IMG/VR virus record: IMGVR_UViG_3300032331_003728 | Span: 1-53,309 of that record | Reading direction: 5' to 3' (one strand) | Length of the DNA stretch: 53,309 nt | Source: a virus | Shown here: positions 13,744 to 38,281 of the stretch, piece by piece | How the letters are laid out: each line of letters starts with the position of its first letter | How positions within the stretch are numbered: the stretch's first letter is position 1 | Position numbers and translations under genes: made by a program | Notes under the pieces: model-generated | Database searches by the model: none | Told to the model about the DNA's origin: nothing | The model's input: the letters and a program-made list of their open reading frames with translations, nothing else

Positions 13744-14331
13744 ATGAAATACATCAATGTTAACGGTGTCTGTATTTACAGAAATGCAATCATTAATCCA
13801 CACGAGATAATAGAAGCTTCTGAGTTGTTGAACATTTCAACCGATAGCAAGGGCAATTGGAGCCAATCTACAGTGATTGATACTGAGGGGAAGGTCTTTG
13901 TTTCTGACGTTAGAACAAATCAGCTAATGTTTACCCCAACGCCAACCCAGAATGGTGACGAATCATCCGCTCAGGTAATGTTAGCAAACAAAATCAACGA
14001 GTATGTTCTCCCATGTGTCCAGAACTTTGCTGCAAAATTTGGGCTGTCAATCAAATTTCAATCCACCCATGGATATCAAATTCTTAAATATTCAATTGGC
14101 GAGCATTACGTATCCCACCTAGACGACGGGGAAAAAACTAGGCGTTACGCATCCGCTGTTGTATATCTCAACGATGACTATGAGGGCGGAGAGTTGTATT
14201 TTCAAGATTTGAATTTTACTTATCAGCCCGTTGCTGGAGATGTTGTAATTTTTCCTTCTGGAGCACCGTTTAGGCATGAGGCAAAACCGGTAATAAGCGG
14301 TATCAAGTACTCCATTGCTAATTGGTGGTAA
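13744..14331 (+). CDS. 2OG-Fe(II) oxygenase, prolyl-4-hydroxylase type (no. 1)
   Basis: A 195-residue protein of the P4H-like double-stranded beta-helix family, which couples 2-oxoglutarate decarboxylation to hydroxylation. The metal ligands appear to be H125, D127 (SHLDDGE) and H178 (FRHEAKPV), with K188 (GIKYS) in the 2-oxoglutarate carboxylate position. The signature YLNDDYEGGELYF lies between them. It is intact and of normal length for a minimal P4H domain. It follows the FN3/Thr-Pro gene and the acetyltransferase and stands apart from the main oxygenase cluster, which favours a link to that fibre module. Confidence 0.88.
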   Translation: MKYINVNGVCIYRNAIINPHEIIEASELLNISTDSKGNWSQSTVIDTEGKVFVSDVRTNQLMFTPTPTQNGDESSAQVMLANKINEYVLPCVQNFAAKFGLSIKFQSTHGYQILKYSIGEHYVSHLDDGEKTRRYASAVVYLNDDYEGGELYFQDLNFTYQPVAGDVVIFPSGAPFRHEAKPVISGIKYSIANWW

Positions 14332-18723: not shown

Positions 18724-19029
18724 ATGGCTAATTCAGCTAAAACACTATTTAGAGGTGCGGCAACCACAACTACAAGCACAACTCTTTACACTGTGCCGTC
18801 CGCGACAACAGCAATTGTGACAAACATTGTTGTCACCAATACTGCAGCAACAGACGGAACATTTACTTTGTCCCTGGATGATGTAGCTTTTGCATCCGCC
18901 GTAACGGTTCCTGCTAAGGGTATTTTTACTCTTGACATCAAACAAGTATTAACTACAACCAAAACAATAAAGGGTGGCGCTAATGCCACCTCTGTTAACT
19001 TCCACATCAGTGGAATGGAGATTGCATAA
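18724..19029 (+). CDS. Small virion structural protein
   Basis: A 101-residue, Thr/Ala/Val-rich, all-beta protein with a GGAG ribosome-binding site. The pattern TTLYTVPSATTAIVTNIVVTN, then FTLSLDDVAFASAVTVPAKG, resembles short beta-sandwich proteins found between fibre and baseplate genes in large phages. It has no Cys or catalytic motif. Its stop overlaps the start of the 918-residue gene by one base (TAATG), so it is probably co-translated with that structural protein. Confidence 0.55.
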   Translation: MANSAKTLFRGAATTTTSTTLYTVPSATTAIVTNIVVTNTAATDGTFTLSLDDVAFASAVTVPAKGIFTLDIKQVLTTTKTIKGGANATSVNFHISGMEIA

Positions 19030-21785
19030 TGGCCGCCAATCAAGTACCTGCAGGTTTAACACCAATAACACCTGAAGAGGTGCTGTTTGACCCTGTCCAA
19101 AAATTAAGGGTATCAAGCCCTCAGGCTTTAATTGACACCGACTTTGAATACGGTACCCAGATTTCAAAGTGGGAAAATTTAATCACTGTTGGAAACCGTC
19201 CATTTGTTTACGACACAGCTTCTCCTATTACCGGAATAACAGCAATCACGATGAGCACGTCATCAAGAACTGTCACGGTATCACTTCCAAGCACGACGGG
19301 TATTGCTGTCGGTACGCCAATATCGGTAAGAGATACTTATCTTGCTATTGCAAACGGAAACTACCTTGTTGAATCAGTTACGTCGAACGTTTCATTTACT
19401 TATACTGCTAAAGCCGTAAATACCGGTTCCGTGACCGCAATTCTTGACGCAAACAAGACGGTTATTTTCACAGGTGCAATTTTTACTGGTGCCGCAATTG
19501 GTGCGGCTCCAACAGTTTCGTACTCAGGCAACGCCGTAACCGTAACGACGACAATCCCTCACGGTTTGTCATTGGGTAATGAGGTTGCTATCACTGGTAT
19601 TACCACAACAGGGGCAAACCCTCCAAACGGCTCAAACTTTGTTGCAAGAATTATAAGCGCAACGCAATTTGTTGTTTATGTTCCAGCTACACCAACAGGA
19701 ACCTTAACCGCCACTTCGGCTGTTGTTTATGTTGTTCCTTCTGGACAGTTCTTGCACCGACCTTTTGACGGCGGTGTGATTTTTACAAACAACGGAACAT
19801 CAAACTATGAAGCCGCGATACGTCAGACTCGTCGTTACTTCCGTTATCAGTCAGGAAAAGGAATCCAGATGTCCTCTGGAACACTCCTAAAGCCAGACCT
19901 TCAACTCGACTCGTTGACATACGCTTCTGGAACAGGTTTGGTTACTGTCCAAACAAAAGAAAAACACAACCTGTATCCAGGTTCAACCATTGTTGTTTTC
20001 GGTGCAACAGAATCCGGATATAACGGAACCTTCACTGTTTACACAATTACTGGATACAATACTTTTACATACACTCCTGACACAACTCCGTCAGCAGCAA
20101 CAGCATCTGGACCTTATTACATTACTGTTTCCGGTTGGTATGGAAACGTAAACAGAATTGGTCTTTTTGACGAACAAAACGGAGTTTTCTTTGAGTTTGA
20201 CGGTCAAACCCTTTATGCCGTTAAGCGTTCATCTACATTCCAGATTTCTGGAAAAGTTTCAGTCACTGCAGGCTCTTGCACAGTAGCTCAATCAAACGCT
20301 GCTTTCCCAACAAGATTCTCAAAACAGTTATCAGTTGGCGACAAAATCGTTTTGCGTGGTGCTTCATACAGAATTACAGATATTGCAAGCGATACGTCAA
20401 TGACCGTGAGCCCTGCTTATCGTGGCACAACAACTGACTATGTTATATGCTCAAGAACTGTTGACACAAAATACGCTCAATCAGAGTGGAACTTAGACAA
20501 GTTTGATGGAACTGGTTCTTCTGGTTACAACGTAGACCTGTCCAAGATGCAAATGTTTTATATTGACTACTCTTGGTATGGGGCTGGTTTCATCCGTTGG
20601 GGTATGCGTGCGACAAACGGAAAAGTAACTTATTGCCATAAGATTGTCAATAACAACGTTAACTCCGAAGCGTACATGCGCTCTGGGAACCTTCCTGCGC
20701 GATACGAATCTGTATCCCAACCTCCTTTCACGTACATGGCTGCATCGCTTTCAAACGTTGCAACATCAATGACGGTTTCTAGCACTGCAGGATTCCCAAA
20801 CACCGGAACCCTTGCGCTATTCAACCAAACAACTGGTTGGGAATACGTCAACTACACAGGTAAGACAGCAACAACATTCACTGGATTGACAAGACAGCAA
20901 ACTGGTAACGCTTCGCTGGCTTTGACTATTACAGCAGGCTCTAATGATGGAACAGTTGTTTCAGCCTCAGGTCTACAGGTTGGTCAAAGAGTAAACGGAA
21001 CAGATGTTCCAGACGGAACATTTATCCAGCAAATCAGCGGAACAAATATCAAATTGAGTTCTGCTGTAACCGGCACAAACCCAACGGTGAACGTAACCCC
21101 AATGGGAACAAACGCCGCTCTTTCATGGACATACTCAGCAACAAACCCAATCGGGGTTGAGCTGGCATACCCAACATACGCTCCATCAATTTCTCACTGG
21201 GGTACTTCAGCGATAATGGACGGAAGATACGACGACGATAAGTCGCTCGTGTTTACTTACGGCTCTGCTTCGGCTGTTACAGTTGCCGCTGGAGCAACAA
21301 ACTGTCTGCTCGCAATCAGAGTTGCCCCATCTGCGGACAACGGAACGTCGGCTGCTTTCGGCGCAAGGGAACTAGTAAACAGAATGCAGTTGGTACTGCG
21401 AGCATTGGATGTTACTACCACTACAGCAGCGGCAAACTTGCTTATTACAGCTGTACTTAATGGTGTCCCATCCGCTTCTGCAACATGGGCAAAACCATAC
21501 ACGGTGACCTCGTCTCTTGCTCAAGTAGCAGACTACGGCGGTACCGTAACAACAATTGCTGGTGGTGAAATTACTGGCGGTTTCTTTGTTGGTACTGGTG
21601 CAAACTCAATCGACCTTGCAGCTGTTCGAGACCTTGGCAACTCGGTTCTTGGTGGTGGTAGCACGGTTACTACGACTGGTATATATCCAGACGGTCCAGA
21701 CGTCGTCCATATTTTGGTGCGCAACCTTGGTGCCACATCGGCAACAGTGTTCGCCCGTCTCTCATGGACTGAAGCACAGGCCTAG
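19029..21785 (+). CDS. Large virion structural protein of cyanomyovirus type
   Basis: A 918-residue protein opening TPEEVLFDPVQKLRVSSPQA then LIDTDFEYGTQISKWENL. I associate this opening with a large structural protein of T4-like marine and freshwater phages. Several ~90-residue beta-rich units recur (e.g. VTVQTKEKHNLYPGSTIVVF, and a related TTTIPHGLSLGNEVAITGIT), which look like repeated Ig-like or hub domains. The middle has the conserved-looking segment QMFYIDYSWYGAGFIRWGMR. No enzymatic motif is apparent. Its presence is the best argument for myovirus morphology; the exact location (baseplate or tail) is inference. Confidence 0.65.
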   Translation: MAANQVPAGLTPITPEEVLFDPVQKLRVSSPQALIDTDFEYGTQISKWENLITVGNRPFVYDTASPITGITAITMSTSSRTVTVSLPSTTGIAVGTPISVRDTYLAIANGNYLVESVTSNVSFTYTAKAVNTGSVTAILDANKTVIFTGAIFTGAAIGAAPTVSYSGNAVTVTTTIPHGLSLGNEVAITGITTTGANPPNGSNFVARIISATQFVVYVPATPTGTLTATSAVVYVVPSGQFLHRPFDGGVIFTNNGTSNYEAAIRQTRRYFRYQSGKGIQMSSGTLLKPDLQLDSLTYASGTGLVTVQTKEKHNLYPGSTIVVFGATESGYNGTFTVYTITGYNTFTYTPDTTPSAATASGPYYITVSGWYGNVNRIGLFDEQNGVFFEFDGQTLYAVKRSSTFQISGKVSVTAGSCTVAQSNAAFPTRFSKQLSVGDKIVLRGASYRITDIASDTSMTVSPAYRGTTTDYVICSRTVDTKYAQSEWNLDKFDGTGSSGYNVDLSKMQMFYIDYSWYGAGFIRWGMRATNGKVTYCHKIVNNNVNSEAYMRSGNLPARYESVSQPPFTYMAASLSNVATSMTVSSTAGFPNTGTLALFNQTTGWEYVNYTGKTATTFTGLTRQQTGNASLALTITAGSNDGTVVSASGLQVGQRVNGTDVPDGTFIQQISGTNIKLSSAVTGTNPTVNVTPMGTNAALSWTYSATNPIGVELAYPTYAPSISHWGTSAIMDGRYDDDKSLVFTYGSASAVTVAAGATNCLLAIRVAPSADNGTSAAFGARELVNRMQLVLRALDVTTTTAAANLLITAVLNGVPSASATWAKPYTVTSSLAQVADYGGTVTTIAGGEITGGFFVGTGANSIDLAAVRDLGNSVLGGGSTVTTTGIYPDGPDVVHILVRNLGATSATVFARLSWTEAQA

Positions 21786-21787
21786 AT

Positions 21788-22567
21788 ATGGCAACTATCG
21801 ACTTCCCGAACGGAGCGCAATCCGGGGACCAGCACACAAGCAATGGTAAGACCTGGACGTATAACGGCTCTGGCTGGGTGTTGGTAACAATACCAACGGC
21901 AATGTTCACAGCATCGTCTATTAATGGTTCAACGCTAGTTGCTGGAACTGTTCCTCTATCAAAAATAACTTCTGGAACCGAAGCGCAAACCATTGTGTAT
22001 AGCTCGGGTGGAGTTCCAACGGCGGTATCTGTGACCGGAGACGTGCTTATCGGCGGCACAGGTGTTACGGCAATAGCATCTGGCGTGATAGTCAATGCAG
22101 ATATCAACGCTTCCGCCGCAATTACTAATACCAAGATTGCTGGGACAGCAGTAACTCTTGCGGATTCTGGAACGGTTACCTCAGCAATGATTGCTGACTC
22201 AACAATTGTTGACGGAGACATAAGTGCTTCCGCCAATATCTCCCAAGGCAAAATCGCAGATATCTTGACAAATGCTCAGGCTGCAAGCTACACACTGGTA
22301 CTTGCCGACAAAAATAAGATTGTTGAAATGAGCGTGGCATCAGCAAACGACTTAACAATTCCTCCAAACTCGTCGGTGGCTTTCCCAATCGGCAGCCAAA
22401 TACAGGTCCTTCAGACAGGAGCAGGTAAGACGAGAATTCTGGCAGGCGCTGGTGTCACCGTGAACGCAACTCCAGGTATTTATCTGCGCGCTCAGTGGTC
22501 GGGTGTTACGCTTCTAAAAAGAGCAACAGATACATGGGTGGCAACGGGAGACCTTTCAGCTACATAA
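21788..22567 (+). CDS. Short tail fibre sharing both end domains with other fibres
   Basis: A 259-residue fibre. The N-terminal ~32 residues repeat the small Gly-Lys-x-Trp domain of the 14395 protein. The middle has shaft motifs (ITNTKIAGTAVTLADSGTVT; DISASANISQGKI). The last ~85 residues (SANDLTIPPNSSVAF; GKTRILAGAGVTVNATPGIY; LRAQWSG) are the same C-terminal domain as in the 9737 fibre. It looks like a condensed version of the longer fibre. It is followed after three bases by an FN3 gene, repeating the 9737-13248 layout. Confidence 0.8.
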   Translation: MATIDFPNGAQSGDQHTSNGKTWTYNGSGWVLVTIPTAMFTASSINGSTLVAGTVPLSKITSGTEAQTIVYSSGGVPTAVSVTGDVLIGGTGVTAIASGVIVNADINASAAITNTKIAGTAVTLADSGTVTSAMIADSTIVDGDISASANISQGKIADILTNAQAASYTLVLADKNKIVEMSVASANDLTIPPNSSVAFPIGSQIQVLQTGAGKTRILAGAGVTVNATPGIYLRAQWSGVTLLKRATDTWVATGDLSAT

Positions 22568-22570
22568 CTT

Positions 22571-23377
22571 ATGGCCGTTTCAAGCAACAAACAAGTCGAT
22601 TCTGGCGGAAAAGAACCGTCTGCGCCAACGATTGGTACCCCACTGCTTGCAACAGGAACATCAGCAAGCGTTGTTTTTACTGCATCTACTTATATAGGTA
22701 AGGGGACGGTAACCTATAGGGCGACCTCGGACTCCGGCCAAACAGCCACTGGAAATTCCAGCCCAATCGTAGTAAGTGGAATGACAGCAGGAACAACAAG
22801 AACGTTCACTGTTGTAGCAATTTCTTCAACTGGGGTTGAATCGCCTTCATCCGCAGTGAGCCCTTCGCTTGTCATGGGTGTTGGTCCATCTGCACCGACA
22901 ATTGGTTCTGCGACTGGCGGTAATGCCTCGGCAACCGTTGCATACACCGCAGGAGCCACAGGAACCGCTGCTTCTGCAACGTACACTGCCACTTCATCAC
23001 CTGGCGGGTTAACGGGCACTGGAGCGTCTCCTATCACTGTCTCCGGCCTTACTAATGGCACTGCCTATACATTCACCGTGACCGCATCGACCGCTTTTGG
23101 CACTGCGACCTCCGCAGCATCAAACTCAGTGACTCCAGTAGCGCCTCCGTATTTCCCACCGTTTTTTCCACCGTTTTTCCCTCCGTATTTCCCACCGTTC
23201 TTCCCGCCGTTTTTCCCGCCTTACTTCCCTCCATTTTTCCCGCCATTTTTCCCACCGTATTTCCCACCCTTCTTCCCGCCATTTTTTCCACCTTATTTCC
23301 CGCCGTTCTTCCCACCATTTTTCCCGCCATTTTTTCCTCCGTTCTTTCCTCCATACTTCCCTCCGAGGTTTAAGTAG
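22571..23377 (+). CDS. FN3 protein with (Y/F)FPP repeat tail
   Basis: A 268-residue protein with two FN3-like domains at about residues 13-97 and 98-190 (VVSGMTAGTTRTFTVVAIS; VSGLTNGTAYTFTVTAS). A striking tail of about eighteen YFPP/FFPP tetrapeptides follows, at residues 193-265, mostly in a 12-residue order Y-F-F, and the protein ends PPRFK. Pro-Pro motifs with aromatic residues would give a polyproline-II rod with a hydrophobic surface. Free PP dipeptides are classic prolyl-hydroxylase targets. The tail is next to GPx-like and oxygenase genes. I do not recognise a known family for the tail. Confidence 0.75.
   Translation: MAVSSNKQVDSGGKEPSAPTIGTPLLATGTSASVVFTASTYIGKGTVTYRATSDSGQTATGNSSPIVVSGMTAGTTRTFTVVAISSTGVESPSSAVSPSLVMGVGPSAPTIGSATGGNASATVAYTAGATGTAASATYTATSSPGGLTGTGASPITVSGLTNGTAYTFTVTASTAFGTATSAASNSVTPVAPPYFPPFFPPFFPPYFPPFFPPFFPPYFPPFFPPFFPPYFPPFFPPFFPPYFPPFFPPFFPPFFPPFFPPYFPPRFK
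23150..23365 (+). repeat. 12-base / 36-base tandem repeat encoding (Y/F)FPP
   Basis: Eighteen 12-base units of the form T[A/T][T/C]TT[T/C]CC[N]CC[N]. Tyr codons start a 36-base super-repeat (YFPP-FFPP-FFPP) for the first four cycles, then the order relaxes to one Tyr followed by four FFPP. Third positions vary, so the array is selected at protein level or old. Confidence 0.85.
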
Positions 23378-23380
23378 AAA

Positions 23381-23959
23381 ATGAAATCAATTTACGACAT
23401 CGACCTCAAGTCATGGGATGGCGAACGAGATATTCTCAAGGACTGTGAAGGCAAGGTAACGCTAATCATTAATACGACTGGACACTGTGGAAACGCACCC
23501 CAGTTTGGAATCATCGAGGGTCTTTACCAAAAGTACAAAGACCTTGGATTTAACGTTGTTGCTGTTCCTACAAATGATTTTTGCGGCGGTGGAGTTACAT
23601 ACGGAGAGTACGCAGACGGTGTAAGAGATGCAAAGCACGCAAGGGATTATGGTGTTGACGAATGGAACGCTTCGTTTGATTTCTCCGAATTAATTGTTTC
23701 ATGGCACGAAAAGCAAGAAGAAAAGAAAAACACGCCACATGAGTTGTATCAAAACCTTATGACAAATGAGGAAAAAAGACTTAAGCAAGATATGACTGGG
23801 AACTTTGAAAAGTTTCTAATTAACAAAAAAGGCGAAAGAGTAGCAAGACTTACCAACGGTGTACTTCTTGAGTATGCGTACAATGACGGTTATTGCGAGT
23901 CTCCAGAAGTTGAGCTTGAAAAACTATCTAAAATGATTGAAGACGAGTTAGCAAAATGA
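23381..23959 (+). CDS. Glutathione-peroxidase-fold protein (no. 1)
   Basis: A 192-residue thioredoxin-fold protein of GPx type. Residues 26-41 (VTLIINTTGHCGNAPQ) fit the GPx active-site strand with C36 in the peroxidatic Cys/Sec place. GFNVVAVPTNDFCGGG matches the second GPx block, but the usual Gln of the N-Q-F motif is Asp66. NFEKFLINKKGERVAR matches the C-terminal GPx strand. The Cys is kept but the Gln of the catalytic tetrad is changed, so peroxidase activity is uncertain; a thiol-redox role is possible. It overlaps the next gene by four bases. Confidence 0.7.
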   Translation: MKSIYDIDLKSWDGERDILKDCEGKVTLIINTTGHCGNAPQFGIIEGLYQKYKDLGFNVVAVPTNDFCGGGVTYGEYADGVRDAKHARDYGVDEWNASFDFSELIVSWHEKQEEKKNTPHELYQNLMTNEEKRLKQDMTGNFEKFLINKKGERVARLTNGVLLEYAYNDGYCESPEVELEKLSKMIEDELAK

Positions 23960-24849
23960 CAACCATTGATACATATCTAAAAGGTGACTACAGAAAGGCC
24001 TACGAGGTCACTCACCCAGTTTCTCTTTATGACATTCCTATTGCTTCTGCGGATGGAAAAGTTAAAGACATATTTGCTGGCAGGAAAGGTAAGGTAACTC
24101 TTATATTCAATTGCGCTGCTGGTTGCGGAAATATCCCACAACACGGAGTTATTGAGCAACTGAACCAGCGCTATGCAAACGAAAAAGACTTTGACATCAT
24201 TGCAGTAGTTGTCGATGATTTTCAGTGCCATGGATACAAAGAATTCCAAGATGGAATTGCCTCGTACTGCCAAACAATTGGTCTTGACATGTCGGTCGGC
24301 GAATTTGCTAAAAAGTATGCTGAAGAAAACTTTGGCACCACTTTTGAGTTCTCAGAACTCACAAACGCTAGATTTGACAAAGTCACATATGAATCAGACT
24401 TTGCGCCAAATACGGCCATAAATCAAACCCAGAATTCTCTTTGGTACTACCTAACCGAGGGCTACAAGGCAACAGTAAACAAACTAGGAATACCATATAC
24501 GGGAGAAGTGGTTCCTTGGTCAAAAGGACAAGAAGAACATCTTGGTGGGGATCCCATAGCGGCATTCCCAAAAAAGGGTAATTTTACAAAATTTTTGATT
24601 GATAGAACCGGAACCAAAACAAACCGATAGTCCAACGGCTTCCTGCTTGGTGAGAGAGACGTAAATGGGGAAATCTATCCATGGTTGGAAGAAAAACTTC
24701 TTGAAGATGGTCAAAAAGACTGGAACCCATTTTTGGGCGTGAAAGAAGATGGTCAGCCTTGGGTGAATCCACAGGTCAAAGAAAAGGGTGTTGACCTGTC
24801 GCTTGACCTAATCAGCAGAGACATTGACGAATTCCTGAGTCAGGCATAA
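23956..24849 (+). pseudogene. Glutathione-peroxidase-fold protein (no. 2) with in-frame amber stop
   Basis: It starts at 23956 and encodes VTLIFNCAAGCGNIPQHG with C57 in the peroxidatic place, then IIAVVVDDFQ and NFTKFLIDRTGTKTNR. It then meets TAG at 24628-24630 (codon 225). The same frame continues open for 72 more codons, SNGFLLGERDVNGEIYPW and on to DIDEFLSQA, ending TAA at 24847. Alignment with GPx no. 1 (ERVARLTNGVLLEY) puts the stop exactly where that protein has Leu, so one base change (TTG to TAG) explains it. TAG ends other genes here, so global recoding is unlikely. It could be a real nonsense mutation, leaky readthrough or a sequencing error. The truncated 224-residue form keeps the core. 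Confidence 0.7.
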
Positions 24850-24875: not shown

Positions 24876-25493
24876 ATGGATTCGCCTTGGAAGATAAAAC
24901 CGGGATTTTTTGGAACTGGTCCAGAAAATATCCATATCATCAAGAACTTCATTGATGAAAAAGATGTAGCGACTATCGCTTCATTTGTACGGACCATTGA
25001 CGAGTGGTCAAATGGCTCAGATGAGGACATCTTTGACGAAAATGGGGTTTGCACCTACAGTGCCGCGTATTGGAATAACAGGCAATGCACCGCAGATATT
25101 TTGCAAAGAATCAATAAGGAGGTATACGACCTTATTGATTTCTATCTCGACAAGATGGCTGTGACCGCGGGTGAGATTTTTAATTGCAAACTACAGAAAC
25201 GACCACCATGCATAGTTAGATGGTTTGGTGGGATTGAACAACGTCCGCACGCCGACAAACAAATGAACGATGGCTCACCAAACCCGTTTCCCACATATGA
25301 CATCAACTCCCTTTTCTATTGGAACGATGACTTTGAGGGCGGAGAGCTTTACTATCCCGAACATGACATCGTTGTGAATCCAGAACCAGGACTTGCTGTA
25401 ATACATCCTGGGGATATTAATTACCTACACGGAGTCAGAATGATTAAGAGCGGCGAGCGCTACACGTCACCAGCGTTCTTTACGGTTGAATAA
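24876..25493 (+). CDS. 2OG-Fe(II) oxygenase, P4H type (no. 2)
   Basis: A 205-residue oxygenase that begins the continuous oxygenase cluster. The Fe(II) ligands are H125 and D127 (QRPHADKQM) and H185 (NYLHGVRM), and R195 (GERYTSP) is the likely 2-oxoglutarate anchor. The family signature YWNDDFEGGELYYPEHD is intact. The N-terminal ~100 residues, with an aspartate-rich stretch, are a lid/substrate region not shared closely with no. 1. Its stop is one base before the next oxygenase's ATG. Confidence 0.88.
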   Translation: MDSPWKIKPGFFGTGPENIHIIKNFIDEKDVATIASFVRTIDEWSNGSDEDIFDENGVCTYSAAYWNNRQCTADILQRINKEVYDLIDFYLDKMAVTAGEIFNCKLQKRPPCIVRWFGGIEQRPHADKQMNDGSPNPFPTYDINSLFYWNDDFEGGELYYPEHDIVVNPEPGLAVIHPGDINYLHGVRMIKSGERYTSPAFFTVE

Positions 25494-25494
25494 T

Positions 25495-26157
25495 ATGGGA
25501 CACGAACCGCTTCTTGCCAATACGCCAAGGATAGGTTTGTTCGTTGAATACCTACCACAGGATGAATGGGGGGTAGTAAAAGCATATTGCGAGAACAACG
25601 AAGAAAAATTTGAATTCGTTGGTCACAATCCAGAGATTGGTTGGAAGAAAAAGACTCATTCAGTTAACCCGAGCATAACGTTTCAAACTTCATTCCTTCC
25701 AACCAAAGATGAAATTGATTCTGGCGGCTACATGACAAACGGAGACAACTACAAAATTTCCATGCATGAGCCGGAAGATGCACAGGTTAACAAAATTCTG
25801 TCGTGGATGTTGATAAATGTTAGAGACACAATAAAGGAAACTTACGGAAATAAGACCTATTTTGAAAGTGGTCCCTGGCTGTCAATGGCTAAAAAAGGCG
25901 ACAACATGGGACTGCACTGTGACGGAGTATTTTTGGACAAGGTTGGCGCAGTCACCGACTTTTCTTGCGTTTATTATGTCAACGACGACTACGAGGGCGG
26001 TGAACTATACATGCCAATCCTTGGACTATCGATAAAACCAAAAGCTAATTCTCTGCTGATTTGGTCTCACACTTGGCACGAAGATATGGCCCATGGCGTG
26101 AAACCGATTGTTTCCGGTACTCGTTATATGTCGCAAGGCTTCTTCACAACTGTATAG
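25495..26157 (+). CDS. 2OG-Fe(II) oxygenase, P4H type (no. 3)
   Basis: A 220-residue oxygenase. I take the ATG at 25495, one base after the preceding stop; a TTG at 25486 is a weaker alternative. The metal triad is H141, D143 (GLHCDGVF) and H200 (DMAHGVKP), with R210 (GTRYMSQG) for 2-oxoglutarate. The strand motif YYVNDDYEGGELYMP is present. A second His (SHTWHEDMAHG) lies near the distal ligand. It has no Shine-Dalgarno sequence, so it relies on coupling with the upstream gene. Confidence 0.87.
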   Translation: MGHEPLLANTPRIGLFVEYLPQDEWGVVKAYCENNEEKFEFVGHNPEIGWKKKTHSVNPSITFQTSFLPTKDEIDSGGYMTNGDNYKISMHEPEDAQVNKILSWMLINVRDTIKETYGNKTYFESGPWLSMAKKGDNMGLHCDGVFLDKVGAVTDFSCVYYVNDDYEGGELYMPILGLSIKPKANSLLIWSHTWHEDMAHGVKPIVSGTRYMSQGFFTTV

Positions 26158-26166
26158 AATGGGTTT

Positions 26167-26832
26167 ATGAGAACCGAAATACTGAGCGACCCCCGCCTTG
26201 GCGTCATTGTTTACAAGGATGCACTGACAAAAGAACTTGACATAATCAACCGCCTGGAGTCGACTATTGGAAACAGCACGACAATGCCGTTTATGTGGTG
26301 CGAGGCCCTTGTCGGGTATTCGGAAAAAATGCCAGAATACCGAGATTGCGTGGACTGCAAGATTGGCACGACACACATAGACCACCTTCACCACTACCCA
26401 CAGTTTGCTGAACTGAAGAACATTTACAACGATACTGCCACTGCAATTCGTAAGTGCATGGACGACTATCAGAGTCGGTATAACATAAACATGCAATACA
26501 TGGAGGCTATTAACTTCATTCGGTATAAGGCAAATCAGCACTTCCAAGTACACACAGACCATGGATTTTCCTACACATGCACTGTCTCATCTGTTGTCTA
26601 TTTTAACGACGACTATGAAGGTGGTGAGCTTTGGTTCCCATACCTTGATTTAACCATAAAGCCAGAAGCCGGAGACATCGTGATGTTCCCGTCAACTTTC
26701 ATTTATGCTCATGCCGCAAAACCTGTAATAAGCGGAGTTAAATACTCTGGCGTAACAATGTTTGACTACAACGACAGAAATCATGACATCAAGGGTAGTT
26801 ACGACGGAGTCAGGGCTCCACTAAATCAATAG
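26167..26832 (+). CDS. 2OG-Fe(II) oxygenase, P4H type (no. 4)
   Basis: A 221-residue oxygenase. The triad is H129, D131 (FQVHTDHGF) and H182 (YAHAAKPV), with K192 (GVKYSGV) replacing Arg as the 2-oxoglutarate anchor, as in no. 1. The motif VVYFNDDYEGGELWFPYLDL is intact. A Cys/His-bearing N-terminal segment (CEALVG, RDCVDCKIGTTHIDHLHHY) could bind metal or act as a substrate loop; nothing similar is obvious in its neighbours. The stop shares a base with the following GTG start. Confidence 0.88.
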   Translation: MRTEILSDPRLGVIVYKDALTKELDIINRLESTIGNSTTMPFMWCEALVGYSEKMPEYRDCVDCKIGTTHIDHLHHYPQFAELKNIYNDTATAIRKCMDDYQSRYNINMQYMEAINFIRYKANQHFQVHTDHGFSYTCTVSSVVYFNDDYEGGELWFPYLDLTIKPEAGDIVMFPSTFIYAHAAKPVISGVKYSGVTMFDYNDRNHDIKGSYDGVRAPLNQ

Positions 26833-27374
26833 TGGCAGTTATCGGAATCTACTCGCCGGGAGCAATGGGCTCGACACTTGCTTACTCCTGCTCTCTAATT
26901 GGGCACAAAACAATATGGGCATCAGAAGGTCGTTCTGAAAAAACCATAATTCGTGCAAAAAAATTTGGGATAGAGGATGTTGTTTCACTCAAAAACCTTT
27001 TAGAAAAAAGTGATTTTATATTCTCGATTGCCAGCAACTTTGACGCATTTGAATTTGCTAGAGTTGTTGGATTAAGTGGTTTTAAAGGTATTTACGTTGA
27101 TTTTAATACCATGTATACGGATACCGACGGAAGTGAGCTTGAAAACATACTTGCCCAAAACAACATAAAGTATACCGAAGGGGCACTGCGCGGTTGGCCG
27201 ATTACCGAGCCATCAAGCGAGGATATTGGCGAGAAAACAATGTACCTCTCTGGCCCATATGCAGATTCAGTTAAGGAGTTGTTCGGTGGATTTTGGAGAA
27301 TAAGAACCATGCCAAAATCTGCAAAATTATTAAATCGAGTTCTTGCAGAGGAGATGGCAATTCTTTATGGTTAA
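26832..27374 (+). CDS. Rossmann-fold beta-hydroxyacid dehydrogenase-like protein, short
   Basis: A 180-residue protein with a GTG start overlapping the preceding TAG. The N-terminus VIGIYSPGAMGSTLAYSCS is an NAD(P)-binding GxxGxMG loop of the 6-phosphogluconate/3-hydroxyisobutyrate dehydrogenase type. SDFIFSIASNFDAFEFA, then GIYVDFNTMYTD and YTEGALRGWPI, follow the family order (substrate DxN and G-A/G-x-GW blocks). Normal members are ~290 residues with an all-helical C-terminal domain. Here the protein stops at ~180, so it lacks most of that domain, and the next gene begins inside its last codons. It may be a cut-down reductase or may work with the next protein. Confidence 0.65.
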   Translation: MAVIGIYSPGAMGSTLAYSCSLIGHKTIWASEGRSEKTIIRAKKFGIEDVVSLKNLLEKSDFIFSIASNFDAFEFARVVGLSGFKGIYVDFNTMYTDTDGSELENILAQNNIKYTEGALRGWPITEPSSEDIGEKTMYLSGPYADSVKELFGGFWRIRTMPKSAKLLNRVLAEEMAILYG

Positions 27375-28071
27375 GGTGAATCTCAAACGAACATACGATA
27401 ACCCACCAGAAATTCGACAGTCCAGAATCACCCGTGACTGGATGGACGAAACCTACAAAAAACATGCATACCAATGTTTGCCGATGACCTTTGCAAATGT
27501 CTATGGATGGGAGTTGGTCCTTCCACAAACCGTTGTTGCCCAATGGGATGGCGGCAACACTGTTCCAACCATTCTTGAGGGTGAATCATATGGCGGAAGG
27601 CAATTGGCCTACGGCGGAATTGTTGGCATGGTTTCATTTTCTACTGGTTGGATTTTTGGAACCGATCCTGGATATGAGACATTTATTGGTGGATCACCAA
27701 ATTATGTCAGAGAAGACGCACAGGCTCTATCGGCAATTATCCCCAGTAGCTGGTGGCCAGATGAGTTTCAGATGAACTGGAAGATAAACAAAGTTGGCGA
27801 ACCTGTTGTTTTTGAGGCTGGTATGCCTTTCATGTTCTTTTCCATCTTTGAAAGCACGGTTTTGGAGAATGTAGATTTTACTGTTGAGAATCTTTGGGAT
27901 GATAAAGAGCTCATGAATAGCAGGCAAAAGTACGGTGATTTAAAAATGAAAAACAACCAAGAGCAGCCCTGGACCTGGACAAAGGGTATAAAAACAGGTC
28001 TTGATGCTGATGGTAATAAGATTGGTCCAACATTCACTGGAATGCCAAAACTTCAAATTCCAGAGCAATAA
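27367..28071 (+). CDS. DUF6065-like protein
   Basis: A 234-residue protein starting at the ATG at 27367 (MVKVNLKRTYDNPPEIR), which overlaps the previous gene by eight bases. The motif order is SRITRDWMDETYKKHAYQCL, LPMTFANVYGWEL, a Trp-Asp-Gly-Gly turn, IFGTDPGYETFIGGSPN, FQMNWKINKVGEPVVFEAG and PFMFFSIFE. It resembles DUF6065, a family of unknown function that I recall in phages and bacteria near 2OG oxygenases. The strand-rich pattern with conserved Trp/Gly suggests a cupin-like fold. The assignment is from memory of the motif order, not a search. Confidence 0.55.
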   Translation: MVKVNLKRTYDNPPEIRQSRITRDWMDETYKKHAYQCLPMTFANVYGWELVLPQTVVAQWDGGNTVPTILEGESYGGRQLAYGGIVGMVSFSTGWIFGTDPGYETFIGGSPNYVREDAQALSAIIPSSWWPDEFQMNWKINKVGEPVVFEAGMPFMFFSIFESTVLENVDFTVENLWDDKELMNSRQKYGDLKMKNNQEQPWTWTKGIKTGLDADGNKIGPTFTGMPKLQIPEQ

Positions 28072-28073
28072 CA

Positions 28074-28691
28074 ATGTCGATGCTCGATTACAGAGATTTA
28101 CTAACGAGAAACGTACATGTCGTTAATGACTTTGCAACCGATGATGAGCTGTCAAAAATCCTTGATAAATGCAATGAGTTTTCAGACTGGGACAACACTT
28201 GGCAAGAACATGTTGACGGACAGAGGTTCACTGAAAGACCAGACTGCCAGGAACGCATAGACGTCTCCTCTAGGGCGTTGGCGCTCGTATCTGCCACGGT
28301 TGGCAGGAGGTTGTGCTTTCTGTATGAACCGTATTTAAGAAAGTACCTACCTGGCTCGTATCTTAAAATGCATGCAGATGCAGAGGGGTACTACGGGGGC
28401 AATCCAGAGCCACTCAAAAACTACGACCCAAACAATCAGATGTCTGAAGTTCTCAATGAATACTCATCAATCCTGTACCTCAACGACGACTACCAGGGCG
28501 GAGAGTTATATTTCGAAGAGCTCGACCTGCTAATTAAGCCAAAAGTTAATCAGCTAGTATTCTTCCCAAGCGGCTCTGAGTTTAGACATGAGGTGAAGCC
28601 TGTTCTAAGTGGGGACAGGTACACCCTTGCCTCCTTTTATACGACTGATAAGCTTGTTGGCCTGCACGAGAGAATACGAGAACTTATATGA
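28074..28691 (+). CDS. 2OG-Fe(II) oxygenase, P4H type (no. 5)
   Basis: A 205-residue oxygenase. The triad is H100, D102 (LKMHADAEG) and H172 (FRHEVKPV), with R182 (GDRYTLAS) as the 2-oxoglutarate anchor. Between them are YLNDDYQGGELYFEELDLLI and FFPSGSEFRHE, very close to no. 1. An insertion with GYYGGNPEPLKNYDPNNQ after the HxD motif would lie at the active-site mouth. It overlaps the next small gene by four bases. Confidence 0.9.
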   Translation: MSMLDYRDLLTRNVHVVNDFATDDELSKILDKCNEFSDWDNTWQEHVDGQRFTERPDCQERIDVSSRALALVSATVGRRLCFLYEPYLRKYLPGSYLKMHADAEGYYGGNPEPLKNYDPNNQMSEVLNEYSSILYLNDDYQGGELYFEELDLLIKPKVNQLVFFPSGSEFRHEVKPVLSGDRYTLASFYTTDKLVGLHERIRELI

Positions 28692-29355: not shown

Positions 29356-30076
29356 GAGGTACGAACCGGAAGTATCTTTTGACTTCAGCTCGCTTCAGTT
29401 TGACTGGGAGCAATACGCAGACCAGTGCAACCGCGAAGATGGTGGACATTCTGTCGCTATAGCTGAATATCTTTTTAACGAGGTGGGCATTGATAGAAGG
29501 AATATTGCCACTGGCGGAGCAAGCGACTACGAGTTTGTGGTTCACTACCCAAGACCGAACCTATCAAGTGCGTATGGTCAAGCTCAGTGGATGTCAATCC
29601 TTTTGATTCTCGGCATCATGGACATCTCTAAAAAGAAGAATGTATTGGCAGTTTCTGGCGGTCTAGATAGATTCAGATTGAAGGTGTTCAAGTCGCTCCA
29701 CGGCGCAAACATCACATTTCTGAATAACAAAAAACTTAGTTTGTACGAGAAATTCCAGGACCCTATTGACCACTATGACGTTGTCACTATGCAGGATTTT
29801 GAGAAACATGTAAACAGCAAATACGACATGATGCTTGCTTGGTCCCAGGACATGGAGAACCCACTAATTCCCATTAGCGCCTTTGTCGACAGGCTTGAAG
29901 ATAATGGTGTTTTAATAATCCAGAACACCTCTGACAGCATGTTTCTCTACAACAACCATACAAAAGCGACTCCAATCTGGGGCTACCACGAAGCGCTAAA
30001 AAAGATGGGTGGTTGCAGCGTCTACCACATACCTGTATTTTATGGAATAACTCTTGTTGTTAAGAGTCCACAATGA
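29342..30076 (+). CDS. Unrecognised protein, possible methyltransferase fold
   Basis: A 244-residue protein from the ATG at 29342 (MEQNKRYEPEVSFDFS); longer in-frame starts upstream lie deep within the previous gene. The order NVLAVSGGLDRFRLKVFKS, IDHYDVVTMQDFEKH, YDMMLAWSQDM and NGVLIIQNTSDS gives alternating strands and helices like a class I methyltransferase. But the glycine-rich SAM loop is not canonical, so enzyme activity is doubtful. It overlaps the next oxygenase by four bases, so it belongs to the same operon. Confidence 0.45.
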   Translation: MEQNKRYEPEVSFDFSSLQFDWEQYADQCNREDGGHSVAIAEYLFNEVGIDRRNIATGGASDYEFVVHYPRPNLSSAYGQAQWMSILLILGIMDISKKKNVLAVSGGLDRFRLKVFKSLHGANITFLNNKKLSLYEKFQDPIDHYDVVTMQDFEKHVNSKYDMMLAWSQDMENPLIPISAFVDRLEDNGVLIIQNTSDSMFLYNNHTKATPIWGYHEALKKMGGCSVYHIPVFYGITLVVKSPQ

Positions 30077-30747
30077 TTGTAAAAGATAACGCCATTGGCG
30101 ATTCTTTGTACAAAGAGGTACTGGCTGATGAACTGTTCTTTCCAGAGTCAATGGGTTCTGACGAAAGATTAGCTACAGAATTAAATTCATACCACTATGA
30201 GAAGTCAAGCTGTTTTGCCCCATATATGTTTTGGGATGGATGGTGGGCCTCTCCGGCCAATACGTTAAGAAAGAAGGTCGTCCAGTCAATTTGGGAAGAA
30301 AACCTGCCCTGCGATACAAGCGAAATACTTGGAATTGAGTACTGGACGAGAACTTATCTCCCTGGTCAGTATCTTGATGTCCATGTCGATGAAGATACCT
30401 TTCTTTACCAGGAATCAAAGACATTCAGTGGTCCATTGACTGGCTCAATATTCTATGGTGTCGACAACCAGGATGGTGGTTTTGTTGAAATATACAACAA
30501 AGCAATTTTAAAAGATGGAGAAAAACTAGCCATTGAAGCTGAAAATATTAACGCTCTATTAGTCCCAGTTGAAGAGCGCGAAAGAATTGCCTACAAAGGG
30601 AATCGTGCAATCATCTTTGATACCGGGCATGTTATTCACGGAACCACTCCTGCAAAAAGCGGAATCAGACAGGTCATGGTCACAAATTTGTGGCATCGCA
30701 ATAACCCTCCAACAGCTCTAAAGTTGGGAGAATTTTTTTATGAGTGA
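30073..30747 (+). CDS. 2OG-Fe(II) oxygenase, divergent (no. 6)
   Basis: A 224-residue oxygenase lacking the NDDYEGGE signature of its neighbours. LPGQYLDVHVDED gives H104 and D106. The distal ligand is H186 or H189 (FDTGHVIHGTTP), and R199 (SGIRQVMV) is the 2-oxoglutarate candidate. A long insertion (about residues 143-178, DGEKLAIEAENINALLVPVE) separates the two halves of the barrel. The geometry is consistent with a functional jelly roll, but the substrate pocket must differ from the P4H-like set. It overlaps both neighbours (4 and 8 bases). Confidence 0.75.
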   Translation: MIVKDNAIGDSLYKEVLADELFFPESMGSDERLATELNSYHYEKSSCFAPYMFWDGWWASPANTLRKKVVQSIWEENLPCDTSEILGIEYWTRTYLPGQYLDVHVDEDTFLYQESKTFSGPLTGSIFYGVDNQDGGFVEIYNKAILKDGEKLAIEAENINALLVPVEERERIAYKGNRAIIFDTGHVIHGTTPAKSGIRQVMVTNLWHRNNPPTALKLGEFFYE

Positions 30748-31642
30748 TGTTAAAAAGGTAAACATTTTATCAATTGATGTATTTAAAACAAAAATTCATG
30801 GCATCAACAATCAGCGACTACTAAAGGAGATTTTTGAGTCAACCAATGATATCGATGATTCATTTACTAAAAATAAATATCACACGTATTACGAAGACAA
30901 AAGATATCCGTTTGGTTCAGCTGAGTCGGAAAAACTAATCAACAAGTTGACAGAAGAAGTTTCTGGTGTTCTAAACAAAGAAATGGTGCTTAGTAGTATT
31001 TGGACACTTACGCTTGGTTACGGGCAGTCCGTGTCTGCTCACTCTCATAAGTCAAACATCCAACTTCGCACAGAAGAGTACTTTTCAATTGCTTATTACC
31101 CAAGTGCTCCCAAAGGGAGCGCAGACTTGATATTTACGGTTAATGCGGGAAACACTATTGAAAAGTCTGTTGAACTAACACCGGAAACTGGTGACTTAAT
31201 TATTTTTAATTCCTATTTAATGCATATGACAAATAGACATAACAACAAAGAAGAGCTTCGAGTTGTTGTAAGCGCAAATTTTTCTCCTAAATATCCCGAC
31301 TTAACTCCAACTCAAGATTGGAGCGCGTACGCAAGAAACCCAGAAGATAGTGAAATTATTTACGACAAACGTTATTCATTGACAATACAAACTCCTTTTG
31401 GTAAAGAAGATGCAACACTCGGTATAAAAGGTAATATTGCAGAAATATTCAATCCAACTGGAAAATATTTCATAGAGGAATTTACTGAAACAGAAAATTC
31501 ATTTAATGCTGAGTTTCTTGTTGATGTACCTATGGTTGCAAAAGTCGGTATTTATTTGTCTTTTGATAAGGACAGGGCCATTGAAGGTTATGTTGTCATT
31601 GGTGAATTTGCCAAATGCCCTGTGAGCGGGGTGGTGCTATGA
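30740..31642 (+). CDS. 2OG-Fe(II) oxygenase of the FeII_5-like group with extra C-terminal domain (no. 7)
   Basis: A 300-residue protein. Its core (GQSVSAHSHKSNIQL, then EYFSIAYYPSAPKGSADLIF, then ELTPETGDLIIFNSYLMHMT, ending RVVVSANFSP) follows the 2OG-FeII_5 layout, with H101/H103, H162 and R174 as ligand and co-substrate candidates. The first motif is H-x-H and not the classic H-x-D. About 110 residues after the core (from QDWSAYARNPED) form a separate beta-rich domain that I do not recognise. Codon use is more AT-rich than in nearby oxygenases. It overlaps the GPx no. 3 gene by four bases. Confidence 0.7.
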   Translation: MSDVKKVNILSIDVFKTKIHGINNQRLLKEIFESTNDIDDSFTKNKYHTYYEDKRYPFGSAESEKLINKLTEEVSGVLNKEMVLSSIWTLTLGYGQSVSAHSHKSNIQLRTEEYFSIAYYPSAPKGSADLIFTVNAGNTIEKSVELTPETGDLIIFNSYLMHMTNRHNNKEELRVVVSANFSPKYPDLTPTQDWSAYARNPEDSEIIYDKRYSLTIQTPFGKEDATLGIKGNIAEIFNPTGKYFIEEFTETENSFNAEFLVDVPMVAKVGIYLSFDKDRAIEGYVVIGEFAKCPVSGVVL

Positions 31643-32250
31643 GTGAATCTATTTATAACATTCCAATAAATTCAATTGATGGAGATAAAGATATCCTCTC
31701 AGGTCTTAGTGGAACGGTCACATTGTTCTTCCCTTTTGCATCAAAGGCTGGGTACGAGCCAAAATGCAGCCGTGTTTGGTCTTACGCTAGGACATCTAGA
31801 AATCTATGGGAAATGCAGAAGTTGCACGAAATGTTTGAAAACTTTTCTGTCATTGGTGTGCCAACAAATCAGTTTTGGAACATGGAGCCTCTTGAAAATG
31901 AACAGATATCAAAATTCATGAAAGAAACATACCCATTTGTCAAGTTCCCAATTACTGAAAAAGTCGTAATAAACGGAGATGACGAGCATGCAATCTGTTC
32001 GCACATGAAGGGCTACACTAAACGACTTGTTGATGACACAAAAGCCGGAAACAGTTTTGCTGCTTCACAAGGCCAAAATCTTGCTGGTGGAGCTGTTCAC
32101 AAAATACCCGCATATTACGAAAAATTTGTAGTCAGCAAAGAAGGACGGCAGGTGTATAGGTTTGGGTTTGCCACCAAACCGTTGGCGGACAGGGTTGAAA
32201 CCACGGACATGGATATGACAGTTGTTCAGGCAGTACAATCATTACTATGA
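31639..32250 (+). CDS. Glutathione-peroxidase-fold protein (no. 3), peroxidatic Cys missing
   Basis: A 203-residue protein. I use the ATG at 31639 (MSESIYNIPINSIDGDKDIL), which overlaps the previous stop as ATGA; an upstream start at 31615 is less likely. VTLFFPFASKAGYEP fits the GPx active-site strand, but A37 stands where Cys/Sec should be. C43 lies six residues on, and a ~14-residue insertion follows. VIGVPTNQFWNMEP keeps the family N-Q-F motif (Q78), unlike nos. 1 and 2. YYEKFVVSKEGRQVYRF matches the C-terminal strand. It is likely inactive as a classical peroxidase and may be a binding or regulatory version. Confidence 0.65.
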   Translation: MSESIYNIPINSIDGDKDILSGLSGTVTLFFPFASKAGYEPKCSRVWSYARTSRNLWEMQKLHEMFENFSVIGVPTNQFWNMEPLENEQISKFMKETYPFVKFPITEKVVINGDDEHAICSHMKGYTKRLVDDTKAGNSFAASQGQNLAGGAVHKIPAYYEKFVVSKEGRQVYRFGFATKPLADRVETTDMDMTVVQAVQSLL

Positions 32251-33107
32251 GCAACTTCAACTTCAAGCCGGAGCACCTAGGTGGTGGAACGGTGATTTTT
32301 AGGAATGCAATCAATGTGCCACAAAAGGAGACATTCGATTATCTGGACGAGATGAGAGAAGAAGCATTTAATAACTCCTACACAATCGTCAATGATGAAA
32401 ACGGCAATCCACTGCATGCGGTAAATAGGGGTGGGTTTATCTACGACCTTGAGGACATGGACAGGGCTCCAATCCGAATAGGGAATTTAGACATTCCATT
32501 TTTTCAAGAATGCGAAAAAGCAATATACGAAGCACTTCTGCATTATGTAGAAATGTTCCCAGCTGTTCTACAGTGCCTTTGGTGGAAGAGCCCTGGTCAT
32601 GTTTTACGGTACGCAAAGGGCGGAGGGCTTGGATTTCACGCTGACAACGATGTGAACTACCGCTACGGGAGAGAGCCAAAAGAGCAGCATGCAACTCGTA
32701 ATGTCCTATCTGCCCTTGTCTACTTCAACGACTGCACCGATGACGAATCGGTTGAGTATTCCTTCTCTGGTGGGCATATGACAATCCCATATTTTGACAT
32801 AGATATTGCGCCATCAACTGGTGCAATTATCCTGATGCCCGCAAACTACATAGGCGCTCATCAAATCCATGAAGTGACTAGGGGTGTTAGGTATTCATAC
32901 TTAACCTGGTTTGCTCAGGGCTCCGAAGACCCAGAGCGTGGGTGCTCTCCAGCTCATCCAGAAGAAACAATGTTTCAAAACAATGGACAATGGTGGCTTC
33001 CATCAATTCTTAAGGATTACGAAAACTATATAATCAAAAAGTATGGCTCTTTATCAAATGCTCCACAAGAAAAAGTAGATTACCTAAGCAGAGCAAACGA
33101 CCACTAA
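32247..33107 (+). CDS. 2OG-Fe(II) oxygenase, long LGGG subfamily (no. 8)
   Basis: A 286-residue member of a subfamily with an N-terminal EHLGGGTVIFRNAINVP motif and ~130 residues before the catalytic core. The triad is H131, D133 (GFHADNDVN) and H205 or H208 (GAHQIHEVT), with R215 (GVRYSYLTW). The strand motif is changed to VYFNDCTDDES...FSGGHMTIP, with an insertion in the usual NDDYEGGE. A C-terminal extension (QWWLPSILKDYENYI) follows the core. It ends by a four-base overlap with the convergent gene at 33104. Confidence 0.88.
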   Translation: MSNFNFKPEHLGGGTVIFRNAINVPQKETFDYLDEMREEAFNNSYTIVNDENGNPLHAVNRGGFIYDLEDMDRAPIRIGNLDIPFFQECEKAIYEALLHYVEMFPAVLQCLWWKSPGHVLRYAKGGGLGFHADNDVNYRYGREPKEQHATRNVLSALVYFNDCTDDESVEYSFSGGHMTIPYFDIDIAPSTGAIILMPANYIGAHQIHEVTRGVRYSYLTWFAQGSEDPERGCSPAHPEETMFQNNGQWWLPSILKDYENYIIKKYGSLSNAPQEKVDYLSRANDH

Positions 33108-33427
33108 ATCTTTTTTGTAAACATCTTTTCGGTTACAAATAGATGTTTTGCGAGAGTACTTGACGAATGAATTATCCCAAGTGGATTTGGGACATTAAAC
33201 TCGTTAAGAAGGTCTGCCATCTTTCCGTTCGCAATGTCTTCCCAAAATGCAATCATTGCTTCTGCCCCAGTACGACCAACTGTGTAGTACCTGTTCTCAA
33301 TCTGGCCTGGGAGTATGTTGTCTGCCCAATTGTTGTAGCCGTCTTTTTCGACCATATTGGGTAATTTTGCAAACTCCTGAACCATAATCTCGGTCCATCG
33401 GTTGAATGCCTCGTTCTTTTCGCTCAT
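33104..33427 (-). CDS. Small hypothetical protein on the opposite strand
   Basis: A 107-residue protein, using the ATG at 33427 (MSEKNEAFNRWTEIMVQEFA). An upstream in-frame start at 33487 would run into the divergent oxygenase. It is helical, with ENRYYTVGRTGAEAMIAFWE in the middle. I do not recognise it. It is the only minus-strand gene inside the plus-strand oxygenase run, tail-to-tail with no. 8 (4-base overlap) and 18 bases head-to-head from no. 9. Confidence 0.55.
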   Translation of the reverse strand: MSEKNEAFNRWTEIMVQEFAKLPNMVEKDGYNNWADNILPGQIENRYYTVGRTGAEAMIAFWEDIANGKMADLLNEFNVPNPLGIIHSSSTLAKHLFVTEKMFTKKI

Positions 33428-33445
33428 TGGGCTATCATACACTGT

Positions 33446-34318
33446 ATGAATCGAGAATCTAAGTTCAACGACGTAGAGCCAAAACATCTTGGTGGTGGAG
33501 TGGTTGTTTTCAGCGGAGCTGTTTCCTTTGACAACGAATGGGCAATCTCGTTCTCTGAAAAACAGGTTTCAAAAGAACGCGCCCAGATGTACGAAGAAGC
33601 CGTCGACCCAGAGACGGGTGGACCTGCGTTTATAAACAAGAGTGGATATTACTTTGATGCAGATGGCATGAATCAGATGCCTCGCCGTGGCTCCCAGATA
33701 CACATGGATGCTGATAAGGATGTAAGAGAATTCTTGGAGTTTATCGAAAAATCAAAAGACTCATATCTCCTTAAGTATTTCTATCTTTTCCCTTTGGCTT
33801 ACAAGAACGTTTGGTGGAAGGTGAAGGGTCATTTAGTTTCGTATTCTGTTAAAAATGGTGGAAAATTCCTAGGGCCACACTCAGACACGAGTGCTGACTA
33901 CGCCTATGGGTTCCCTCACCCGCACGACCAATTGGCTACAAGAAACACAATCTCATGCATTGTCTATCTTAATGATGACTTTGAGGGCGGGCACCATTAC
34001 TTCAATTATCTTGATATTGACTACAAGCCTTCTGCTGGTGACATCTTGATGTTTCCGTCAAATTACATGGCGGCTCACGAAGTAAAGGAAACAACCGGCG
34101 GGAGCAGGTACACATATCTGGGTTGGTATTCTCACGGCACGCCAAACGAAGCTGTAAACGAGCATATAGTTGACCCTGTTGAGAACCCGGAACTCGCGAG
34201 GACGGCAACAAACGTTTATATGCCAACGCTTCGTTCGGACTTTGCTGAATATCTGAACAAAGTGGACCCAGGAAGAACTTCATTTGGTCATAGCCTTGTT
34301 GAAAGTATGCACTCATGA
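33446..34318 (+). CDS. 2OG-Fe(II) oxygenase, long LGGG subfamily (no. 9)
   Basis: A 290-residue oxygenase. The N-terminus EPKHLGGGVVVFSGAVSFD matches nos. 8, 10 and 11. The core has H145, D147 (GPHSDTSAD), VYLNDDFEGGHHYFNYLDID, H211 (AAHEVKET) and R221 (SRYTYLGW). The C-terminal extension (PTLRSDFAEYLNKVDPGR) is helical. A Trp-Trp-Lys segment (NVWWKVKGHLVSYS) just before the core is shared by the subfamily (WWK, KWR or WWR). There is no visible Shine-Dalgarno sequence, and its promoter region must overlap the 33104 gene. Confidence 0.9.
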   Translation: MNRESKFNDVEPKHLGGGVVVFSGAVSFDNEWAISFSEKQVSKERAQMYEEAVDPETGGPAFINKSGYYFDADGMNQMPRRGSQIHMDADKDVREFLEFIEKSKDSYLLKYFYLFPLAYKNVWWKVKGHLVSYSVKNGGKFLGPHSDTSADYAYGFPHPHDQLATRNTISCIVYLNDDFEGGHHYFNYLDIDYKPSAGDILMFPSNYMAAHEVKETTGGSRYTYLGWYSHGTPNEAVNEHIVDPVENPELARTATNVYMPTLRSDFAEYLNKVDPGRTSFGHSLVESMHS

Positions 34319-36116: not shown

Positions 36117-36118
36117 GA

Positions 36119-38277: not shown

Positions 38278-38281
38278 TTAG

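Follow-up and report, generated by a model that had tools for sequence, protein, structure and literature searches.

The proline-aromatic rod of an FN3 protein, encoded in a 53-kb viral record (the window, i.e., the whole stretch of DNA that was analyzed), is on sequence evidence a widespread module of uncultured phages, and its gene linkage to prolyl 4-hydroxylase (P4H)-like 2OG oxygenases and to DUF6065 is shown by the loci compared here. The explanation that we regard as probable is that the rod serves as an extended adhesin stalk, the prolines of which would be hydroxylated by the neighboring phage P4H-like 2OG oxygenases.

The Rod Protein and Its Genomic Context

The open reading frame 22571-23377 has an N-terminal part that matches fn3 in Pfam (E 9e-7), and its AlphaFold2 monomer model shows two confident FN3-like domains, with FN3 tandems as the best PDB matches. 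The rod begins at residue 192 (nt 23144) and consists of 18 PP[YF]F units, 6 of them PPYF and 12 PPFF, which are followed by PPRFK and the stop codon. In the same model the rod is unstructured (pLDDT ~44-58) and gives no confident rod structure. On the DNA level, Tandem Repeats Finder detects only diverged 12/36-nt repeats with 76-82% matching. The original prediction of 18 Pro-Pro-aromatic tetrapeptides as a C-terminal tail on an FN3 protein was confirmed by direct reading of the frame; the interval that it had assigned to the rod does hold the FN3 protein with its rod, and the rod proper covers only 23144-23374. The features discussed in this paper are:

13744..14331, + strand: 2OG oxygenase upstream of the rod region (phrog_61, E 1e-29; PF13640, 61 bits)
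19029..21785, + strand: virion structural protein of T4-like/Kyanoviridae type (phrog_5838, E 9e-276)
21788..22567, + strand: minor-tail/tail-fibre-like protein, encoded immediately before the rod gene (phrog_8780, E 3.5e-23)
22571..23377, + strand: FN3-rod protein, 268 amino acids (open frame, Pfam, AlphaFold2)
23144..23374, + strand: proline-aromatic rod (PP[YF]F)18 PPRFK, residues 192-268 (direct reading and codon analysis)
23381..23959, + strand: glutathione-peroxidase-like protein (PF00255 above cut-off)
23956..24630, + strand: second glutathione-peroxidase-like protein (PF00255, E 3e-5, below cut-off)
24876..25493, + strand: 2OG oxygenase of the family that directly follows PPXF rods ending in FK elsewhere (PF13640; phrog_61)
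25486..26157, + strand: 2OG oxygenase (PF13640 above cut-off)
26167..26832, + strand: P4H-like 2OG oxygenase of the family that directly follows FFxPP or mixed rods elsewhere (PF13640 above cut-off)
27343..28071, + strand: DUF6065 protein, which recurs as the third cassette member (PF19541, E 4e-44)
28074..28691, + strand: 2OG oxygenase (PF13640 above cut-off)
30073..38914, both strands: further 2OG oxygenase cluster (PF13640 and PF13759; 30073 below cut-off), with members 30073, 30740, 32247, 33446, 34315, 35046 (minus strand), 36119 (minus strand), 36818 and 38282
31615-32250: third glutathione-peroxidase-like gene, inside the oxygenase cluster

Tail and structural genes, recognized by phrog matches, lie directly upstream of the rod gene, as is looked for in a fibre or adhesin. 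The 918 amino acid product of 19029..21785, whose gene lies two places before that of the rod protein, shares 44% identity with T4-like cyanophage structural proteins (S-RSM4) and serves as a landmark of this site, which in some relatives is occupied by unrelated genes and in others by a rod gene. Cyanobacterial hosts were considered for the rod phages and set aside: none of the 40 rod-bearing records checked contains psbA or psbD, which gives no indication of photosynthetic hosts. Another repetitive candidate for a structural protein in the window is the product of the 1685 amino acid ORF 4657-9714 (phrog_23524), which contains 114-bp tandem repeats (8140-8718).

Selection on the Rod Peptide

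Across the 18 units of the window the Pro/Pro/Phe codons show 264 third-position differences and none at positions 1-2, a count that is partly circular because the units are defined by their peptide (the lack of changes at positions 1-2 among perfect units arises partly by construction), and a comparison of orthologues was used instead. Between the window and L001, the closest relative among the matches listed, the 80 rod-covering codons have no amino acid difference and 30 third-position differences. The rod codons of L002 and L005 differ by one amino acid and 35 third positions, and further orthologous rod pairs show a like pattern. Since synonymous sites vary while the rod peptide is held in orthologues, it is the protein sequence that is under selection, and on this codon evidence the rod peptide is maintained by it. 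Slippage can give rise to repeat arrays, yet that the rod is a slippage or assembly artefact has a practically negligible chance, as it is contradicted by the third-position divergence around a conserved peptide and by the recurrence of the pattern in hundreds of contigs.

Over 57 distinct tails, position X of PPXF is mostly F, Y, H, or W, and where small residues (G, S, A, R) are found there, they belong for the most part to the last unit. The YFF-YFF pattern of the window, in which 12 residues equal four polyproline-II (PPII) turns, looked suggestive of a PPII phase but was dropped as evidence; the non-Phe residues of the 57 tails have no enrichment at lag 3 (z 0.4). The same residues are depleted at four-unit spacing (lag 4, z -8), an observation that is unexplained.

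Distribution and Architecture of the Rods

At least 230 relatives of the FN3-rod protein were confirmed in IMG/VR, which was scanned for PPXF rods and for (FF[AS]PPx)n rods; the counts from these scans are among the matches listed. The rods are built of PPXF, FF[AS]PPx or mixed repeats and are carried by FN3 proteins, by a short non-FN3 family and by several other backgrounds, in 14 N-terminal clusters. Both unit types are found inside one protein in 14 cases, from which PPXF and FFxPP rods appear to belong to one module.

In some carriers the rod is the end of the protein, often as PPxFK and stop (of an initial 123 classified rod proteins, 45 have an FK terminus). Other rods are internal, and what comes after them is a Cys-rich cap, an FN3/Ig-like or a Hint-like domain, or an S74 chaperone. 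The Hint-like segment was matched by Intein_splicing, Hint_2 and PT-HINT, all below the curated cut-off, and the Peptidase_S74 chaperone, which is above cut-off 3' of the rod in L126, does not occur in the window protein. Such architectures are in keeping with a fibre or adhesin in which the rod is a stalk or spacer. The (PPPF)n rod at L578:2361-3266 represents a third type; its carrier is an FN3 protein that is Hint-like at the C-terminus, and the genes that come next are an oxygenase of the 26167 type and one resembling DUF6065. In another protein (L173:3560-6478) rods alternate with Thr-rich and Cys-containing repeats and a Hint-like domain stands at the end; cleavage at this domain could expose a rod end.

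The original prediction described the rod composition as foreign to any known phage family. This holds for Pfam and PHROGs, which contain no model of the rod. The other searches were empty and are weak tests: a PDB sequence search with the bare rod, subject to a composition filter, and tblastn against named phages with the whole protein and the bare rod, subject to a low-complexity filter, gave no match. Nine records of cyanophages or of marine origin were scanned directly for the pattern, for PPXF-type rods only, and none was found. Host genomes gave six matches in 85,000, all on MAG contigs, and two of these (L089 and L091) resemble chance reading frames.

Linkage of the Rods to 2OG Oxygenases

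The 14 PF13640-type oxygenases of the window served to build an HMM, which was run on loci that had been gathered without reference to oxygenases. Among the FN3 relatives (n = 80, among the matches listed), an oxygenase was found in all 33 loci with a rod and in 1 of the 47 without. This sole exception (L006) has a degenerate PP-aromatic rod, the oxygenase starts 22 bp downstream of it, and it is the only PF13640 gene found in the 91.8-kb record; 23 other rod-less FN3 records have no PF13640 gene. For the T4-like loci the oxygenase is present in 35/35 with a rod vs. 12/44 without. Six of these 35 come from more distant relatives (structural gene ~58% identity) and have an FFxPP rod at this site, which by sequence comparison apparently represents a separate rod gain. 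The Fisher values, 1e-21 for the FN3 relatives and 1e-12 for the T4-like loci, are descriptive only because the sequences are related. All locus counts given here are likewise of related loci and not of independent events, and the linkage argument is carried by the separate protein backgrounds and rod types in which it recurs.

When whole records are counted, those with PPXF rods have 3-12 PF13640 genes (median 9, 21 records) vs. 0-3 in those without (median 1, 26 records), leaving out G036, which has eight PF13640 genes and no PPXF rod but an FFxPP rod. Among the matches listed, 67 of the 79 FFxPP rod loci contain an oxygenase at a median gap of 65 bp, and at least one PF13640 gene occurs in 43 of the 49 diverse PPXF records (median 7); the six in which none was found (L100, L149, L153, L168, L208, and L210) are all incomplete contigs. 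The short non-FN3 rod family has an oxygenase in 34/44 loci and the L100-like N-terminal class in 0/8, and collagen-like repeat genes, taken as control, in 9/119. In the reverse direction, a rod is present in 48 of the 54 loci in which a 26167-family gene has sufficient DNA upstream of it, a search that is biased towards rods because its query was built from rod-adjacent enzymes; two of the other six loci carry a degenerate or PPPF rod.

These results also answer the metagenome search for such tails and their neighbors that was proposed with the original prediction, and the objection foreseen there, that the tail might be common in phages without oxygenases: the tail is widespread, yet nearly always adjoins 2OG oxygenases. 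The rods do not explain the 2OG oxygenase superfamily as a whole. In the cyanophage S-SCSM1, for which 24 2OG-Fe(II) oxygenases were reported (PMC9602691), and in other cyanophages the pattern scan found no PPXF rods, so such oxygenases have other roles too.

Properties of the Oxygenases and of DUF6065

The 24876 product scores 22.7 bits with PF13640, below the 27-bit cut-off. Its family conserves H125, D127, H185, and R195 at ≥95% in 41 sequences, and the 26167 family conserves H129, D131, H182, and K192 at ≥95% in 85 sequences, in agreement with the HxD...H motif and its K/R. Judged by these alignments, the iron triad and the K/R that binds 2OG are retained in the two families. The nearest PDB sequence to the 26167 product is the Bacillus anthracis prolyl 4-hydroxylase (3itq/5hv0), and the top Foldseek matches of its AlphaFold2 model (pLDDT 88) are PHD2, algal P4H, chlorella-virus vCPH and PPHD (TM ~0.6), with bacterial P4Hs also among the closest folds. 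By its catalytic residues, sequence and predicted fold the 26167 product is P4H-like. The PDB matches of the 13744..14331 product are prolyl hydroxylases as well, and its link to the rod is only putative. In total the window has 14 PF13640-type oxygenases, which is more than one rod seems to need; it is likely that they act on different sites or other substrates.

Among 128 same-strand oxygenases directly 3' of rods the best match is 26167 in 84 and 24876 in 40. PPXF rods ending in FK are paired with the 24876 family in 37/37 cases, and the usual partner of FFxPP or mixed rods is the 26167 family, a pairing that is no proof of specificity, as rod type also follows phage lineage. The isolated phages in the collection have no close homolog of 24876 or 26167.

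The DUF6065 gene is found in 168/289 rod loci vs. 1/91 rod-less loci, among the matches listed. It lies downstream of the rod on the same strand in 171/172 cases, usually 3' of both the rod and its oxygenase.

Possible Function of the Rod and Its Oxygenases

According to the mechanism that we favor, FN3 domains would be joined to an extended proline-aromatic stalk on a phage tail adhesin or fibre component. The stalk, with its 77 residues, would reach ~24 nm if it is PPII-like. The neighboring oxygenases, 24876 first and 26167 as a second type, would hydroxylate its prolines, which may render an otherwise very hydrophobic stalk soluble and stiff, and DUF6065 might be a helper in rod maturation. 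Hydroxyproline is known to give solubility and stiffness to collagens and plant extensins. A fibre or adhesin role is the most likely one in view of the gene context, with tail genes upstream and the S74 chaperone after the L126 rod. From gene linkage and enzyme family we infer the enzyme-substrate cassette; we likewise infer the virion location, the PPII shape, proline as the modified residue and the DUF6065 function. The original proposal that the rod is a substrate of prolyl-hydroxylase-type enzymes is thereby supported in part, by the genomic linkage in three sets of loci (FN3, T4-like and FFxPP) and by the P4H-like nature of the adjacent enzyme.

One other option is that the rod and the oxygenases are separate contents of one exchangeable cassette of tail and auxiliary genes, the enzymes acting on the host surface, small molecules or nucleic acid. 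Tail regions are known to swap as blocks, many oxygenases exist in cyanophages without PPXF rods, and 12 of the rod-less T4-like loci have one too. We consider this unlikely, since the same adjacency recurs with two rod types and on different carrier proteins, the oxygenase gene in many cases directly adjoins that of the rod, the single PF13640 gene of L006 adjoins a degenerate rod, and collagen-like repeat genes do not show such adjacency. Another hypothesis is that the oxygenases modify the rod or a neighboring structural protein at non-proline residues, e.g., Phe/Tyr or FN3 side chains, in line with the many residues hydroxylated by the 2OG superfamily and with the many divergent copies in the window. 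This seems quite improbable when the nearest structures, by sequence and by fold, are protein prolyl hydroxylases and no other feature is as constant across the rod types as Pro-Pro. The insertion into or binding to a membrane or mycolic-like surface that was originally suggested found no support: an unmodified hydrophobic tip that acts on a host membrane or lipid-like surface would agree with the very hydrophobic composition and with the FK termini, but it leaves the oxygenase link unexplained, and rods that are internal and continue into other segments fit a spacer better than an inserting tip. We rate this reading as very improbable.

The closest parallel to the proposed phage-encoded hydroxylated stalk is found in mimivirus, in which collagen-like proteins are modified by the virus's own lysyl hydroxylase/glycosyltransferase L230 (PMC9614988). 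In both systems a structural protein with repeats and a 2OG hydroxylase are encoded by the same virus, here as a putative pair of substrate and enzyme; there the target is lysine in collagen GXY repeats, whereas here Pro-Pro-aromatic repeats accompany P4H-like enzymes in tailed phages. Collagen-like stalks are also borne by phage and prophage tail proteins (PMC3368898) and resemble the rod as repetitive, proline-containing stalks on a phage structural protein. The rod differs from them in its PPXF or FFxPPx units, which have no glycine at every third residue, and in its oxygenases, which are rare at the collagen-like loci. Plant extensins and other HRGPs have S(P)3-5 repeats with hydroxyproline, made by plant or algal P4H. 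They share with the rod proline-rich repeats with aromatics beside P4H-type enzymes, and algal P4H (structures 2jig/3gze) is among the top fold matches; the window rod has no SPPP or SPPPP motifs and the repeats have no sequence relation.

In the literature, phage 2OG oxygenases are ascribed to host metabolism and their functions are called uninvestigated (PMC9602691), and PHROG 61 was compared with human EGLN3 (PMC12774648). The oxygenases described here belong to the same PF13640/phrog_61 superfamily, with many copies and a PHD-like fold; they differ in having a PPXF rod nearby, while those of the scanned cyanophages do not and are treated as metabolic genes. The open-access literature, which includes few subscription journals or preprints, yielded nothing on DUF6065, on rods of this kind or on virion hydroxyproline, and no link between phage 2OG oxygenases and virion rods. 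We file the rod as a repetitive phage stalk of a new type and the proposed hydroxyproline system as a novel case.

Through its consistency, the neighborhood of oxygenases and a proline-rich rod points to a concrete protein substrate for phage oxygenases and to a way of assaying them, and suggests a testable job for a large class of them so far without one. We see a little better than an even chance for a broader proposal: that uncultured tailed phages widely use self-made hydroxyproline rods, matured by dedicated prolyl hydroxylases and DUF6065 as an exchangeable cassette. Along with collagens and extensins, there would then be a third solution reached by convergence, and rod maturation would be what one large branch of phage 2OG oxygenases mainly does. 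If this is true, it would bring hydroxyproline biology to tailed phages, a role for DUF6065, an oxygen-dependent step in virion maturation and a new stiff-rod repeat for protein design.

Other Genes That Accompany the Rods

Relatives of the three glutathione-peroxidase-like genes are, among the matches listed, found in 40/289 (23381), 36/289 (23956), and 10/289 (31615) rod loci, and each in 0/91 rod-less loci. Genes with an HIPKTSGT-like sulfotransferase motif adjoin the rod and oxygenase at L229:10890-11645 and L235:10905-11672; Pfam gave no match for the former protein, and among the matches listed the motif was counted in 26/289 loci with a rod and in 0/91 without. At the end of the oxygenase cluster of the window, 38936-40045 encodes a protein that resembles the di-iron N-oxygenase AurF, with a Pfam match below cut-off.
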